DNA of 63,349 nt from Gammaproteobacteria bacterium (GTDB taxonomy: Bacteria; Pseudomonadota; Gammaproteobacteria; Arenicellales; UBA868): NCBI GenBank assembly GCA_022450155.1, contig JAKUQR010000019.1, forward strand, positions 1 to 63,349. Reading direction: 5' to 3'. Made by a program: the position numbers and the translations under genes. Each line of letters starts with the position of its first letter. Positions within the stretch are counted from its first letter, which is position 1. The notes beneath the pieces were generated by a model that saw only the letters and a list, made by a program, of their open reading frames with translations, ran no database searches and was not told the origin of the DNA. Of the stretch, positions 536 to 7,675 are shown piece after piece.

Positions 536-1019
536 CACTGATAGCTAAAAGAGTCGATATTCTAGCAAATAATTTTTAGAAATCCCTACAATAAAGTAAA
601 TAATTATTTTATTCTTACTTTTCTCAGAACTATTAGAATATTTTTCCTATTTAGTTGATTCTCGAGAACCTTTGTTGTTGTTCTATGCGATCGATCAACT
701 CCTTTCCCAGGAGCCCCGGTTGATGGGGAACGTCAACAGGGAGGCAAATATTTCAGGAAGACAGTCGAGCCCGCAGAAGGCTGTGATTGGGGGGGAAACG
801 GGGTAGCGAATTATCTGTAGGTGATCCTGGTTCCTTAGATCGGTGCTGAACGAATTATTTTAAATCAGTGGCTTACAGTTCAATACTTACTTTCCTTCTA
901 TAGACCTCTCGCTAAGCGCTATGTTCTTTCGAACCCACTAGACCGTCCTTCACCGACAGAGATTCCGCTAGAGTTTGAATGCCACATAGATCGGTGAGAT
1001 ACTGCTTATCGAGGAATCA
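536..1019. other. Gene-free stretch between divergent genes
   Basis: No convincing open frame is visible on either strand. About 541-660 is strongly A+T rich and probably contains the promoters for the two divergent transcripts (leftward stub/ATP-grasp, rightward stress protein). I see no RNA gene or IS end. Confidence 0.5.
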
Positions 1020-1036
1020 ACCGGTGTAGTACCGGT
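1020..1036 (+). promoter_or_regulatory. 6-5-6 inverted repeat just before the Usp ribosome site
   Basis: ACCGGT, five bases, ACCGGT lie directly upstream of AGGAG (1041-1045) and the ATG at 1049. Because of its position it could be an operator or an mRNA hairpin next to the ribosome site. Its function is inferred only from placement. Confidence 0.35.
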
Positions 1037-1048
1037 CATCAGGAGTCG

Positions 1049-1897
1049 ATGTACAAGACAATTCTGCTACCGTTTTATCACTGTGTTCCTACCGCTGTTG
1101 AAATTGACGCAGCGCAGCTAATCGCTCGTCGTTACAGTAGCTACATAGAGGGCTTTTTTGTCCCACACCTGATTCGCACGGTTGTCGGCGTAGGCATTGT
1201 GGCGCACAGTGCCCAATCAATAGATACGGATAAGCAAACGGAACAACTGGCGAGTGAGGCGCGTCAATGCTTTTTCAATCTTCTTGACGAACGAGGTATT
1301 CCAGTCGGTACGATAGATGATACGGAGACCCGAGTAAGAGGGCATTGGGAGGAGAGCAATCAGGTCTCTGATACGATTATCGGGAAAAACGTACGCTTGT
1401 TTAATCTTGCAATCGTACGTCGCAATTTGGACGACAAGGGGTCATTCTGGCAGAGGGCTTCTGAAGCGGTGCTCTTCGAAGGCGGCAGACCACTGCTGCT
1501 GGTCAGTGACACCATCCTCGAGACCCTTGGGAAAAATATTGTTTTAGCCTGGAACGGCAGTATTGAAGCGGCCAGAAGCCTCACCGCAAGTGCGCCACTT
1601 CTGGAAGAAGCAGAACGGGTTGTTGTCCTGACCGTAGAAGGCGCGACCGTGCAGGGTCCCAGCGGTGCTGAGGTTACCGACCATTTACGGGCTCGGGGTA
1701 TTGCCGCCTTTGAACAAACTATTGACAGGGAAAACAACACCATCGGTCGAGCAATTCTAGATTTTGCCATAAGTGCGGATGCGGATATGCTGGTCAAAGG
1801 CGCATTCACTCATTCGAGGTTGCGACAACTGATATTTGGAGGAGCGACTCGGGAAATCATGCAACACTCGACGCTACCGGTGCTCATGTGTCATTAA
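1049..1897 (+). CDS. Universal stress protein, two tandem UspA domains
   Basis: 282 residues, about twice one Usp domain, so a tandem protein: first domain about 1-135, second about 150-282. The second domain ends with the nucleotide-site signature near residues 251-270 (GAFTHSR, then FGGATREIM), typical of ATP-binding UspA folds; the first domain lacks a clear equivalent. Such proteins are cytoplasmic and accumulate in stress or stasis. The start has AGGAG seven bases upstream. The HisA-like gene follows after 10 bases and is presumably in the same transcript, so the two products may work together, which is not a textbook pairing. Confidence 0.88.
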   Translation: MYKTILLPFYHCVPTAVEIDAAQLIARRYSSYIEGFFVPHLIRTVVGVGIVAHSAQSIDTDKQTEQLASEARQCFFNLLDERGIPVGTIDDTETRVRGHWEESNQVSDTIIGKNVRLFNLAIVRRNLDDKGSFWQRASEAVLFEGGRPLLLVSDTILETLGKNIVLAWNGSIEAARSLTASAPLLEEAERVVVLTVEGATVQGPSGAEVTDHLRARGIAAFEQTIDRENNTIGRAILDFAISADADMLVKGAFTHSRLRQLIFGGATREIMQHSTLPVLMCH

Positions 1898-1907
1898 ATA
1901 GTGGCTT

Positions 1908-2834
1908 ATGATTATCTATCCTGATATAGAAATACAAAACGGGCAATCAGTCAGTCTAGCCCGTGGCCGCAAAGAAGAGCCCACGGTTTTTGATATCTCA
2001 CCGCTTGACGCCGCAGAGGAGTTCCAGAATGCCGGTGCCGAATGGCTTCACGTGGTTGATATTGATGGCGTCTTCCGGGGCAGGGGATACAATTCGGACC
2101 TAATCTGCGAAATCATCGACAATGCAGATATACCTGTGCAGGTTGCCGGTGGTATCCGCACTGAACATCATGTCGACTGGTGGTTTGAACACGGGGCCTC
2201 CCGTATCGTACTGGGCACCGCGGCGATCAAGGATACTCAATTGCTACGACGTGTCTGCCATCAATATCCCGGCAGAATCGTTGTCAGCATTGATGTGAGA
2301 AACGGGTTTGTCTTGATCGATGGCTGGCAGACCCAGACTTCCTTTCAGCCAATTGAGCTGGGAAAAAGCTTTGAGAGTATAGGTGTAGCCGCAGTAATCT
2401 ATACAGACATTGAACGATTTGAAAATCACCCTGAGAGCAGCTTAGCCGGGACCAGCGAGATGGGGACAGCACTGGAGCTCCCAATTATATCCTCGGGTAC
2501 GGTTCATTCCCTTGATGATGTCTCCTTCTTGCGCTTCCTACCCAATATCGACGGGGTAATTACCGGCAAGGCGTTGTTTACCGGAGCAGTCAGCCTCAAA
2601 GATGCTATCGCTATTGCGGGTGGGCCTGGGGTCGATGCGTCACTGGCCGAGGAAGGTGTGAAACCACCCTCGCTGGCAGACACCACAGGTCAGAAGGAGG
2701 GCGATCATCGGAGTGATTACAAGACAATGGGCCAGGAACTGCTGGACCTACATCAGGCCTATTCCAAAGGGGCGATGACTGTTGAGGAATACGAAAGTGC
2801 GAAGCTCAGCATCTTGAGAAACTTTGGAGAATAA
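1908..2834 (+). CDS. HisA-like TIM-barrel isomerase with C-terminal SHOCT domain
   Basis: 308 residues. Residues 1-240 are a HisA-type half-barrel repeat: D6 in YPDIE, D129 in SIDVRNG and T166 in IYTDIE sit where the catalytic acid/base pair and the conserved threonine of ProFAR isomerase lie. Phosphate loops are GGIRT (81-85) and SSGTVHSLDD (195-204), where most HisA proteins have GG rather than GT. Residues 241-270 are a linker and 271-305 (MGQELLDLHQAYSKGAMT, then EEYESAK) are a SHOCT module, an oligomerisation helix pair usually found on unrelated proteins. No other his gene is near. It may be a real isomerase, or a paralogue on another phosphosugar. Cotranscribed with the Usp gene; no clear Shine-Dalgarno, so coupling is likely. 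Confidence 0.8.
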   Translation: MIIYPDIEIQNGQSVSLARGRKEEPTVFDISPLDAAEEFQNAGAEWLHVVDIDGVFRGRGYNSDLICEIIDNADIPVQVAGGIRTEHHVDWWFEHGASRIVLGTAAIKDTQLLRRVCHQYPGRIVVSIDVRNGFVLIDGWQTQTSFQPIELGKSFESIGVAAVIYTDIERFENHPESSLAGTSEMGTALELPIISSGTVHSLDDVSFLRFLPNIDGVITGKALFTGAVSLKDAIAIAGGPGVDASLAEEGVKPPSLADTTGQKEGDHRSDYKTMGQELLDLHQAYSKGAMTVEEYESAKLSILRNFGE

Positions 2835-3176
2835 TCTTTATAGGAATGATGAGGTTTGATTGAATAATGGAATTGCAGATTCGAGACCAATCTACCCTTA
2901 TCCGTCGTGCCGTTTCCCTCGATTTTCGATATAGAGTTGGCCAAATAAGAGTTGGAAAGCGCTCGCTCATCCGTACTCCAGTCAGAAACTCCGCTCATAG
3001 GAAGTTGCCTTATCTCGATACCTGTGAGTTCAATCTTTCCACCAAATTCTCCGCCCTTAAATCCATGTCATGGATCTCGCAGACCTGGCAGAAAAGGCTG
3101 CATGATCTGCGGTTTTAGGGGGCCATTGCGAGTAGGATATAGATCCGTACTTGTAAGAGTTTCTACGAGTCAGAAA
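2835..3176. other. Gene-free stretch after hisA-like gene
   Basis: Short overlapping frames occur on both strands but none has a ribosome site or recognisable sequence. Those on the minus strand run antisense into the HisA-like gene. I see no terminator of the classic kind. Confidence 0.4.
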
Positions 3177-3256
3177 GTGTGGCCCGGTAGAATCAGTGGG
3201 ACTGAAAATTCCTCGGCCAAATGGCTGTGCCGATTCGGCTCCGGTCCCGGACACCA
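3177..3256 (+). pseudogene. Degenerate tRNA-Leu (UAA-type), 5' half damaged
   Basis: The 3' two-thirds is a good tRNA-Leu: GGGACTGAAAATTCCTCGG in the anticodon region, the long type-II variable arm CGGCCAAATGGCTG, a T arm with TTCG, and CCCGGAC-ACCA with an encoded CCA. The usual loop CTTAAAA reads CTGAAAA, so the anticodon would be UGA instead of UAA. The 5' acceptor strand does not pair with CCCGGAC, and about ten bases of the D arm are gone. I read it as a dead tRNA-Leu or the leftover of an attachment site used by an integrating element. Confidence 0.65.
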
Positions 3257-3423
3257 GTCAATACACTGACAATAAATTAGAAATATAATGACTAGTCCTA
3301 ATGAAGGGGGCGAGTTCTTCACTTGTGGTGCAATATTAACAATGAGTCTACTCATTCCGACTCAAATTCACACTCACCTAACAGGTTGGTGACATCGGCA
3401 CAGCTCGTCGAGCAAGGATAAAT

Positions 3424-4824
3424 ATGAGCAAAGAATCCTTTCTTTCTTCGGTGGAGACGAATTTTGACCACGCAGCGGGCCTGCTTGGACTTTCAGACGA
3501 TCTGGCCGAAAAGATTAAGATTGCTAATTCGACCTATGTCGTGCGCTTTGGAGTGAGACTGCGGGGCGGACTGCAAAGCCTAACGGGATACCGCACTGTC
3601 CATTCTGAACATTTTGAACCGGTTAAGGGCGGTATTCGCTACGCACCTTTTGTCGATCAAAACGAGGTGGAAGCACTGGCAGCGTTGATGACTTATAAAT
3701 GCGCGCTGATGGAGATTCCTTTTGGCGGTGCGAAGGGTGCGCTTGTGATTGATCCAAGGAAATGGGAAACACAGGAATTAGAGCAGATCACCCGGCGCTT
3801 CACCCAGGAGTTGGCGAAACGTGATCTGATCAGTCCCTCCCAGAACGTGCCTGCCCCGGATGTGGGTACAGGTGAGCGTGAGATGGCCTGGATAGCGGAT
3901 GAATATAAAAGACTGAACCCCGCTGATTTGAACGCATGGGCTTGTGTTACAGGCAAGCCCCTTGGCAAGGGCGGTATCGCCGGTCGGACTGAGGCAACCG
4001 GGCGCGGCGTGCAATACACTCTGCAGGAGTTTTTTCGTCATACCGGAGATGTAAAGAAAACTGGTCTCTCTGCAGGGCTTGGCGGTAAGCGAGTGATTGT
4101 TCAAGGACTCGGAAACGTTGGTTACCATGCAGCGCTCTTTCTAAGCCAACAGGATGGCTGTCGCATCACTCATGTTTTAGAAAGAGATGGCACGATCGTG
4201 GATTCTGAAGGGATAGATATCGCTGCACTACACGAACACATGATTGAGATAGGCAGTATTGAGAGTTATCCCGGCTTTATCGATAGTGGCCCCGAAATGC
4301 TGGAGGCAGAAGCCGATATTTTAATTCCAGCTGCAATGGAAGGTGTAATTGACGAAACCAACGCCTCACGAATTCGAACGCCGCTGATTATTGAGGCGGC
4401 CAATGGTCCGATTACAGCTGGCGGCGATGCGATCTTAAGAAATAACGGTGTGGTCATCATTCCTGATTTCTGTGCCAATGCCGGGGGAGTAACGGTCAGT
4501 TATTTCGAATGGATCAAGAACCTCACCCATATTCGCTTTGGCCGAATGCAGCGACGTCAACAAGAAAGTCAGTTCGAGAGGTTGATTGCGGGAGTAGAGT
4601 CGATGACCGGCAAACCGTTCCCGGAGACTGATCGCAATGCAGTACTGAGCGGGGCCACGGAGATCAATCTCGTCCGCTCAGGATTGGAAGATACGATGCG
4701 TGGAGCCTACGACGCAATTAGTGAGACCTGGAACCATAAAGACAATGTTCCTGATCTTCGAACCGCAGCGATGATGATCGCGGTTAAGCGAATTGCCCAC
4801 AGTTATATTTCAATCGGGATTTGA
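3424..4824 (+). CDS. Glu/Leu/Phe/Val-type dehydrogenase, probably glutamate dehydrogenase
   Basis: 466 residues, slightly longer than usual hexameric GDH. Residues 66-108 hold the substrate site: PVKGGIR (K68), MTYKCA (K92) and the signature PFGGAKGAL (99-107, catalytic K104). PAPDVGTG (143-150) supplies the catalytic aspartate. The Rossmann dinucleotide motif is GLGNVG (228-233). It interconverts glutamate with 2-oxoglutarate and ammonia; whether NAD or NADP is used cannot be settled here. An AAGGAT sequence six bases before the ATG supports the start. It stands alone, preceded by the tRNA-Leu remnant. Confidence 0.88.
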   Translation: MSKESFLSSVETNFDHAAGLLGLSDDLAEKIKIANSTYVVRFGVRLRGGLQSLTGYRTVHSEHFEPVKGGIRYAPFVDQNEVEALAALMTYKCALMEIPFGGAKGALVIDPRKWETQELEQITRRFTQELAKRDLISPSQNVPAPDVGTGEREMAWIADEYKRLNPADLNAWACVTGKPLGKGGIAGRTEATGRGVQYTLQEFFRHTGDVKKTGLSAGLGGKRVIVQGLGNVGYHAALFLSQQDGCRITHVLERDGTIVDSEGIDIAALHEHMIEIGSIESYPGFIDSGPEMLEAEADILIPAAMEGVIDETNASRIRTPLIIEAANGPITAGGDAILRNNGVVIIPDFCANAGGVTVSYFEWIKNLTHIRFGRMQRRQQESQFERLIAGVESMTGKPFPETDRNAVLSGATEINLVRSGLEDTMRGAYDAISETWNHKDNVPDLRTAAMMIAVKRIAHSYISIGI

Positions 4825-5969: not shown

Positions 5970-7004
5970 TCAAAGTATCGATTGGACAGATATCAGGACA
6001 GCAAGGCACAACATTCCCGCACAGATGGGTGTGACCAGCCAGCCTAAAACAATACCACCAACCAGATGCCAGCGAATGCTGGATGCGCCACGCAATAAAC
6101 CAATCCCTATGACAGCGCCGACTATGGCCTGAGAGCTGGATACTGGAACGAGCGGGATCTGGGGTAATCCTGCAGCATCAAGCCAGGAGGCTAAACTTTT
6201 AGAGGTAAACAAGATAAGCACGATGGCATGCGAGACGACCGCAACCCAGGCGGTTAACGGTGAAAGCTGAAATAAGTTCCTACCTACCGTGAGCATGACA
6301 CGGCGGCCATACGTAACCACGCCGACTACGATAGCCAAAGCCCCGATCAGAAACAGAACCTGAGTTGAGTCCAATAAGAGCACGGAACCAAATCCAATGG
6401 ATGGTGGTTGAACAACATGAATGAACGGACCCATTACATTTGCAATGTTGTTTGCACCCAGGCTGTATGCGCCAAACGCCCCAGCGACCAGCAAAGCCCA
6501 ACGAATAGTGGCATCCTGTACAAAAAGCCGTAAGTTCAGAATCCGCATGGTGGCAGCTAAAGGCGGCAGCAAGGCGGCAGCGATCAGCCCCGCAAGCAAG
6601 GGACAGAATATCCATGATGCGATGATTGTTTTGAGAATATCGGAGTCGGTCTCAATACCTTGAAAAATATTCCAGCCAACCAATGCGCCAACAATCGCTT
6701 GGCTTGTCGAAACAGGTAACCCGAACCGGGTCATGATGAACACCGTAAAACCAGCGGAGACTACGGCTATGAATGCATGTAACGATTGATCAATCTCAGA
6801 CAGCTTGCTGAGCGTCTCAGCAGGTCCAGCTCCACTAATTACCGAACCCAGAACTACAAACAAACTGCATACCAACGCCGCCGTGGCAAACCGTACCATT
6901 TTGGTACCGACAGCCGTGCCGAACACATTAGCTGCGTCATTCGCACCCAACGCCCAGCCCAGAAACAAACCACCGGAGAGTATTACAAATGTGGAAATGT
7001 CCAC
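5970..7004 (-). CDS. pit: PiT-family low-affinity inorganic phosphate transporter
   Basis: 344 residues, nearly all membrane: about ten hydrophobic segments. The family's duplicated signature is visible, GANDAANVFGT near residues 20-30 in the first half and GANNIANVMGP near 183-193 in the second, each carrying the Asn/Asp residues of the transport site. It moves phosphate (usually as a metal-phosphate complex) with a proton or sodium ion across the inner membrane. At 344 residues it is the short form without a large central loop. It lies 11 bases after the DUF47 gene in a two-gene operon. Confidence 0.9.
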   Translation of the reverse strand: MDISTFVILSGGLFLGWALGANDAANVFGTAVGTKMVRFATAALVCSLFVVLGSVISGAGPAETLSKLSEIDQSLHAFIAVVSAGFTVFIMTRFGLPVSTSQAIVGALVGWNIFQGIETDSDILKTIIASWIFCPLLAGLIAAALLPPLAATMRILNLRLFVQDATIRWALLVAGAFGAYSLGANNIANVMGPFIHVVQPPSIGFGSVLLLDSTQVLFLIGALAIVVGVVTYGRRVMLTVGRNLFQLSPLTAWVAVVSHAIVLILFTSKSLASWLDAAGLPQIPLVPVSSSQAIVGAVIGIGLLRGASSIRWHLVGGIVLGWLVTPICAGMLCLAVLISVQSIL

Positions 7005-7015
7005 AGGATAAGGTG

Positions 7016-7675
7016 TCAGATGCGACGTTTAATGGCGCTTATAGCCAGCTGGTCAGCGATATCCTCCGACTGATTGGCAAGTTCGTCGAAGTGTTCGACA
7101 AAATAGCGTAGTTGCATTTTCTGACTGAGATCCAGATCACTATCGAATATTCTACGTTGCAAAGGACTACTGACTTCATCGGCTTTCGTTTCCAGCAGAG
7201 CGACTTCTCTTGCAAGATCAGCTACGGATTCATGATCTTCGAAAAAGTTACGAGCTGTGAAGACCACCTTATCAACGCAATCAATGGTTATGTCGATAAG
7301 TTCAATGTAGGTTGCCCTGAGCTTATCTGGGATTTCAGGTTGTTGAATTGATAATCGAAAAAGGTTTGCTTTGCAGGTGTTAGTCAGTTTATCCATATTT
7401 TCAATCAGCCAGATTACGTCACTCCGAAGGTCAGGAATCAAGGTGCGCTCGTAAAGCTCCGTTTCAATTTGTCGGCGCAGTTCATCACCTTCGCGCTCGG
7501 TAGTCTGAATCTTATTCATAAATTCTTCGAATTGGGTATCGACGCCTTCGGCCAGGTAGACCTTAAAAGCAATCGAAAAAAGCTCTGTTGATTCGGTGAC
7601 TTTATCCAGAAACTCTTCGATCTGAATCTCCAGTCTCTTTGTTCGACTCAATAACTTTGTGTTTTTAAAAAACAT
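7016..7675 (-). CDS. DUF47 / PhoU-like partner of Pit
   Basis: 219 residues, almost wholly alpha-helical, with the PhoU-like acidic helix series EREGDELRRQI (about 63-73) and LLETKADEV near 169-177, followed by LRYFVEHFDELANQSEDIAD near 195-212. These E-x3-D patterns bind metal clusters in PhoU-fold proteins. DUF47 proteins are nearly always next to a Pit transporter and are thought to control it. It is the first gene of the operon, with a 22-base palindrome about 110 bases upstream. Cytoplasmic. Confidence 0.88.
   Translation of the reverse strand: MFFKNTKLLSRTKRLEIQIEEFLDKVTESTELFSIAFKVYLAEGVDTQFEEFMNKIQTTEREGDELRRQIETELYERTLIPDLRSDVIWLIENMDKLTNTCKANLFRLSIQQPEIPDKLRATYIELIDITIDCVDKVVFTARNFFEDHESVADLAREVALLETKADEVSSPLQRRIFDSDLDLSQKMQLRYFVEHFDELANQSEDIADQLAISAIKRRI

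Follow-up and report, generated by a model that had tools for sequence, protein, structure and literature searches.

The stretch of DNA analysed here, a window of 63,349 nucleotides that constitutes contig C19 of the gammaproteobacterial genome G000 (3.2 Mb, 95.5% complete, 2.34% contamination), carries a gene for a HisA-like (beta-alpha)8 barrel that is not the biosynthetic hisA of its genome. We give an even chance to the reading that the protein is a paralogue derived from HisA that has ceased to act as the isomerase of the histidine pathway and would bind a nucleotide resembling the AICAR half of ProFAR, with a different acid-base step; in more general terms, the rewired barrel probably handles a related sugar-phosphate nucleotide rather than making histidine. 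A repurposed isomerase was one of the options raised in the original prediction, and the separate hisA, the distinct clade and the changed catalytic residues described below all speak in its favour.

Locus, family and the separate hisA

The barrel gene (positions 1908–2834, on the forward strand, as are all parts of the two genes given below) encodes 308 amino acids and matches PF00977 (His_biosynth) with 197.9 bits against a cut-off of 23.6 (E = 2e-58). It lies on the same strand as, and 10 bases downstream of, an ORF of 282 amino acids (1049–1897) for a universal stress protein (Usp), one of two such proteins in the genome, with a paralogue (44% identity) at G000:C3:195914. The Usp had been described as tandem, and PF00582 (40 bits, cut-off 24) indeed matches the C-terminal part (residues 205–282), but the N-terminal domain is assigned by reading of the sequence. 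The two genes are likely cotranscribed, as had been proposed, judging from the 10-base gap and from the terminator-like sites, of which there are none within 600–3450 (mean of 2.0 in shuffled sequence); the proposal is weakened, however, by one of the three promoter-like sites in the same interval, a number at chance level, which falls inside the Usp gene (1764–1791). Short stretches of the window (3140–3256 and 79–362) and of a second contig of the genome, C18 (L118, 7084–7526), recur at other sites in genomes belonging to the genus or family and are probably dispersed repeats.

No his genes were noticed among the ORFs surrounding the barrel. The canonical HisA of the genome is encoded at G000:C4:164134-164853 (37% identity to the window protein, E = 9e-47) and is followed by a HisF-like match, the ORFs around it reading hisB, hisH, hisA and hisF, with hisB and hisH named by reading. 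The claim that a HisA-type protein resides here outside any his operon is thus upheld, and so is the expectation of a separate hisA, found on C4 beside hisF: the window barrel is not the biosynthetic hisA. A second HisA match is present in 15 of the 17 named carriers of the paralogue and absent in G428 and G431; G428 appears to be the same genome as G004 (86% complete), with identical coordinates and score. G427 carries the same paralogue match as G003, and its second HisA has diverged strongly (66 bits). Genome G003 itself encodes a very diverged HisA-like protein (L148, G003:C209), unlike the HisA of G000, which adjoins a HisF-like match and sits on an end branch of 3.04; low-scoring HisA-like matches akin to it are seen in G002, G006, G024 and G032.

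Relatives of the window protein (35–72% identity) occur in gamma- and alphaproteobacteria, with carriers including Marivibrio halodurans, Pelagibius marinus, an Afifella MAG and Candidatus Spongiihabitans thiooxidans. The paralogue was found in 9 of the 61 related genomes (E ≤ 4e-78); G047 adds a tenth case, which is a fusion and more diverged. Class-wide, at least 5 of 370 genomes carry it (G000, G387, G260, G306 and G392), as do at least 6 of 386 alphaproteobacterial genomes (G433, G512, G784, G581, G676 and G741), the latter among the 30 loci listed; both counts are lower bounds, the E-value limit having also admitted canonical HisA, from which carriers were told by score gap, motif and tree. 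The family is thus rare and thinly scattered in both classes. One pattern-based scan revealed no viral copies, and a plasmid search returned 29 records, all below 60% identity, with 20 among the matches listed resembling ordinary HisA by organism and identity.

Maximum-likelihood analysis of 29 members together with 40 canonical HisA, with one HisF included, united all 29 members in a single, fast-diverged clade (support 100/100), whose stem measures 1.04 changes per site and which stands next to alphaproteobacterial HisA with an outer join supported at 93/80. The window protein scores 196.9 against the TIGR00007 equivalog cut-off of 228.95, and all six members scored fall below it (185.7–215.7), with all four canonical HisA above (253.2–265.8); PRK13585 separates the groups less cleanly, with one of the four canonical HisA (L025) below its cut-off. 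We refer to the clade as the E8 family, because the name HisA2 is already in use for a quarter of the barrel, as the consulted part of PMC1963479 indicates. An AlphaFold model of the window protein, built on 28 rows, folds residues 1–247 (1908–2648) into the barrel (pLDDT 86, pTM 0.76), and the first Foldseek matches were PriA and HisA, led by 2vep and 3zs4, so that modelling, suggested at the outset as a check, returned a HisA/PriA barrel.

Active-site residues and proposed chemistry

Residues were compared between 27 unfused members and 39 canonical HisA sequences. L148 was excluded from the canonical set; its inclusion would give 39 of 40 for R16 and D171, and 40 of 40 for D8, D129, T166, W140 and R84. 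The fused protein L114 was counted separately, and a third fused lineage (L117, in G047) lies outside both this comparison and the tree. According to the available portions of two studies (PMC13055916, PMC9088769), the catalytic residues of PriA are D11 and D175, and D130 is likewise conserved in the active site; substitutions of R19 hinder the recruitment of D175, the site for the N-terminal phosphate consists of R85 and T105, and W145 makes the stacking contact with ProFAR. Because PRA, the smaller substrate, has no second phosphate, the R85/T105 site would belong to the AICAR side of ProFAR.

The catalytic Asp pair (D7/D176 in Salmonella HisA, D11/D175 in PriA) is absent from the window protein. 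In alignments with PDB structures the first Asp corresponds to E8 (1929–1931), a position occupied by Asp in 39/39 canonical sequences and by Glu in 26 of the 27 unfused members (Gln in the other), and the loop-6 Asp corresponds to F171 at the end of T166-D167-I168-E169-R170-F171 (2403–2420), Asp being found there in 39/39 canonical sequences and 11/27 members. The original prediction had placed the first catalytic residue at D6, two positions earlier, which proved a misassignment, since this position is Ala in all 39 canonical HisA, and it had missed the loss of the loop-6 Asp; its reading of D129 (2292–2294) and T166 as kept was correct, each being conserved in 26 of the 27 members, alongside D167 in all 27. 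Equally borne out is the replacement of GG by GT in a phosphate loop: in S196-G197-T198 (loop 7, 2493–2501), position 198 is Thr in 16 members, Val in 10 and Cys in one, against GG in 39/39 canonical HisA.

Two further changes affect the substrate and loop-6 positions. The substrate-binding Arg (R19 of PriA), invariant in the canonical set (39/39), is S16 in the window protein (1953–1955) and gone in all 27 unfused members (Asn 17, Ser 3, Thr 2, His 2, Gln 2, Ile 1), and the family has gained an acid in loop 6, E176 (2433–2435; Glu in 21 and Asp in 4 of 27), at a position that is Gly in 39/39 canonical sequences. The counterparts of the ProFAR-binding residues R85, T105 and W145 are present as the distal-phosphate grippers R84 (2157–2159; 23/27) and T104 (2217–2219; Thr 25, Ser 2 of 27) and the substrate-stacking W140 (2325–2327; 27/27). 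The paralogue thus appears to keep the residues of the AICAR half-site and to be changed in the ring-opening half. Overall, the window barrel resembles HisA (TIGR00007/PF00977) in fold, length, the GGIR and GT loops, D129, T166 and GW140, but differs from it in the Asp-to-E8, Arg-to-S16, loop-6 Asp-to-F171 and loop-7 GG-to-GT changes, in its own clade, in its location away from his genes and in its score below the TIGR00007 cut-off.

In the paralogue, residues that HisA requires at the site of ribosyl-amine ring opening are thus swapped or lost, and residues holding the distal phosphate and the ProFAR imidazole are retained. In the mechanism we favour, the predicted ligand would be a nucleotide like the AICAR half of ProFAR, either a phosphoribosyl-imidazole or a similar N-ribotide, and E8 together with the new loop-6 acid E176 would replace the HisA Asp pair, beside D129 and T166. 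The C-terminal tail and the Usp would be local additions of the lineage that lie outside the core function and may serve stress-linked expression or docking.

Fusions, the C-terminal tail and the Usp partner

In three other lineages (G260, the genus g228 and G047), the same barrel continues into a nucleoside 2-deoxyribosyltransferase-like domain (PF05014/PF15891), which the window protein lacks; PF05014 scored above its cut-off in all six fused proteins scanned. The fused loci are L114 (2096–3397), L115 (5711–6931), L117 (from 1983) and L162–L175. The fused barrel was matched in 24 of 31 g228 genomes and in none of the 10 genomes of two sister genera, with 22 of the 24 matches reaching residue 396 or beyond and those in G834 and G855 stopping at 305 and 339, respectively. 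Among 15 g228 fusions, position 8 is Gln in 14 and His in one, position 129 is Ala in 12 and Asp in none, position 166 is Lys in 14 and Arg in one, and position 171 is Leu or Met in 14 and Asn in one, with R84 and T104 kept in 14 and W140 in 13. As judged from these alignments, the HisA catalytic residues are mostly lost in the g228 branch and the putative ligand-holding residues kept. The G260 fusion (L114) keeps E8, D129 and T166. Genes around the g228 fusions read as housekeeping and gave no functional clue; near the G260 fused gene, a group II intron domain was matched (L053, 714–828; RF01999, 102 bits).

These fusions bear on the main rival to a repurposed enzyme, namely a pure sensor: a pseudoenzyme whose barrel would only bind a phosphoribosyl nucleotide, such as ZMP/AICAR or ProFAR, and signal through the tail, the Usp or the fused domain. 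We regard this as possible, if somewhat unlikely. Retention of the grippers and of the Trp while catalytic residues change is what such a protein would display, all 15 g228 fusions lack D8, D129, D171 and T166, and in the window a Usp adjoins the barrel. Against it, E8, D129, T166 (26/27 each) and D167 (27/27) are near-invariant in unfused members, a pattern that resembles a working active site. Searches for a regulatory context also argue against a sensor: no ZTP riboswitch was matched at the gathering cut-off at the 29 loci, and no regulator was noticed as a common neighbour in 27 neighbourhoods. Over whole genomes, none of the 14 carriers had a ZTP riboswitch above the cut-off among at most 150 candidates scored per genome (non-exhaustive in 12 of the 14), with one sub-threshold match in G440 (29.4 bits, cut-off 39). 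Clustering of neighbouring genes at 27 loci yielded a largest neighbour cluster of four loci and no pointer to a pathway, which, like the riboswitch searches, also speaks against the favoured mechanism.

Behind the barrel, a low-confidence linker (residues 248–269, 2649–2714; pLDDT below 50) leads to a SHOCT-like two-helix tail (residues 274–307, 2727–2828), modelled by AlphaFold as helices 274–286 and 292–307. The tail is found in 3 of the 27 unfused members (the window protein, L034 and L035), which measure 304–308 amino acids against 238–248 in the others. It resembles SHOCT (PF09851), as presented in the consulted part of PMC3581485, in comprising about 30 C-terminal residues with two short helices and, by reading, a conserved Gly and Glu, but all three tailed proteins score below the Pfam cut-off of 27 (12.3 bits for the window protein, 17.4 for L035, with L034 unlisted at E ≤ 0.5). 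The HisA-SHOCT combination is thus seen in three of the unfused proteins, but at no point with the strength required by Pfam. The description of the tail as a SHOCT oligomerisation module was not sustained: its score is sub-threshold, it is confined to three unfused relatives, and the experiments described in the accessible sections of the SHOCT paper did not support oligomerisation (PMC3581485).

The pairing with Usp proved similarly local. Apart from a remnant in the sister genome G003, the other 26 neighbourhoods contained no ORF that grouped with the window Usp (BLASTP at E < 1e-10 across half the length), which contradicts a general HisA-SHOCT/Usp pairing. In G003, a Usp 70% identical to that of the window is followed by the same 10-base spacing and the first 36 nt of the barrel gene, and then by unrelated sequence; this 5' stump lies in L145 (G003:C227), starting at base 1715 on the minus strand. 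The full-length barrel gene of G003 is located elsewhere in the genome, facing a cyclase gene (PF04199), and so the pairing is common to two genomes of the genus but broken in G003. No paralogue was found in G001 and G002 (86% and 81% complete), where Usp reaches only 42–43% identity. In G000, a 3' stump of a second paralogue copy (about 147 nt, with one in-frame stop) lies on C18 (L118, ~6949–7095) next to the same cyclase stretch as in G003. The cyclase stretch is 93% identical to G003, against 70–72% between the window copy and the G003 gene; because other long C18 stretches match G001–G003 at about 84–90%, a shared island is as likely as mis-binning to account for the 93% match.

Other candidate functions and significance

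A redundant second ProFAR isomerase that has drifted in sequence would account for the HisA/PriA fold and for the retention of D129, T166, W140, R84 and T104. Two points count against the favoured reading: some activity can survive the replacement of Asp by Glu, and Asp is retained at position 171 in 11 of the 27 members. Moreover, the diverged L148, a HisA-like protein beside a HisF-like match, keeps D8 but has Gln at 16 and Glu at 171, so that a new function may not follow from the loss of R16 and D171 alone. We nevertheless consider such an isozyme unlikely, given the catalytic Asp-to-Glu change in 26/27 members, the loss of the substrate Arg in 27/27, the long stem, the scores of all six members under the TIGR00007 cut-off and the presence of a separate hisA.

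An enzyme of one-carbon or methylamine metabolism, suggested by serine-cycle and MttB neighbours, appears quite improbable. Genes read as fhs-mcl-mtkA-mtkB lie upstream in L123 and L124, and 4 of 27 loci have MttB-like genes, also named by reading, at distances of 79 to 7027 bases; yet L123 and L124 are close kin and may represent one event, and such genes were not noticed at other loci. The MttB link was discarded as uninformative, since genes for MttB-type methyltransferases are present in 56 of the 61 relatives (G000–G060), mostly in multiple copies (up to 15), with or without the paralogue.

Substitution for TrpF (phosphoribosylanthranilate isomerase), as in PriA or SubTrpF2, has a precedent in PriA barrels turned TrpF-only in an actinomycete family, as reported in the available text of PMC13055916, but was rejected as very improbable, because trpF (PF00697) is already present in 27 of the 29 carrier genomes, including G000 (missed in G004 and G429), the catalytic Asp common to TrpF (D126, in the consulted part of PMC9088769) is lost in the window barrel, and R84, T104, W140 and T166 are kept, though SubTrpF2 changes them. 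A decaying copy devoid of function is just as poorly credible, for although truncated copies exist (the 3' stump on C18 and the 36-nt stump in G003), the window copy is intact across 308 codons, its dN of 0.18 relative to the G003 gene is far below a saturated dS of 2.7 (NG86), and the active-site columns are conserved family-wide.

The closest precedents for a repurposed HisA paralogue are PriA, SubTrpF2 and AdeK of Actinomycetota, which, as described in the accessible part of PMC13055916, likewise represent HisA-fold isomerases beside a biosynthetic one with a shifted function, but which belong to another phylum and carry other residue changes; AdeK retains HisA activity and is part of nucleoside-antibiotic clusters, whereas no such cluster was noticed at the window locus. 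Our literature search found no paper combining HisA and SHOCT, and a search on HisA paralogues or a second hisA returned, among the matches listed and as far as their accessible text goes, PriA/AdeK expansions, his-gene evolution and unrelated papers. The E8 family would be a naturally occurring example, from outside Actinomycetota, of the duplication and rewiring of a histidine enzyme. Its fused branch, with the isomerase residues nearly all gone and the ligand grip apparently kept, may serve as a model for the conversion of an enzyme fold. A bolder and doubtful proposal is that the family as a whole acts on an AICAR/ZMP-type nucleotide as its protein receptor or processing enzyme, with the HisA grip on the AICAR half of ProFAR kept, the isomerase half dismantled and output delivered via add-ons, which would be the deoxyribosyltransferase-like domain in some lineages and the SHOCT-like tail and Usp in the window genus; if true, the ZMP/ZTP riboswitch would have a counterpart made of protein, which would link folate and purine state to stress. 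For annotation, a PF00977 match alone would pass a member of the E8 family as HisA, from which the family is set apart by the signature P-[DT]-I-E (in most members), SG[TV] and P-E-S-S (in most), together with the TIGR00007 gap.
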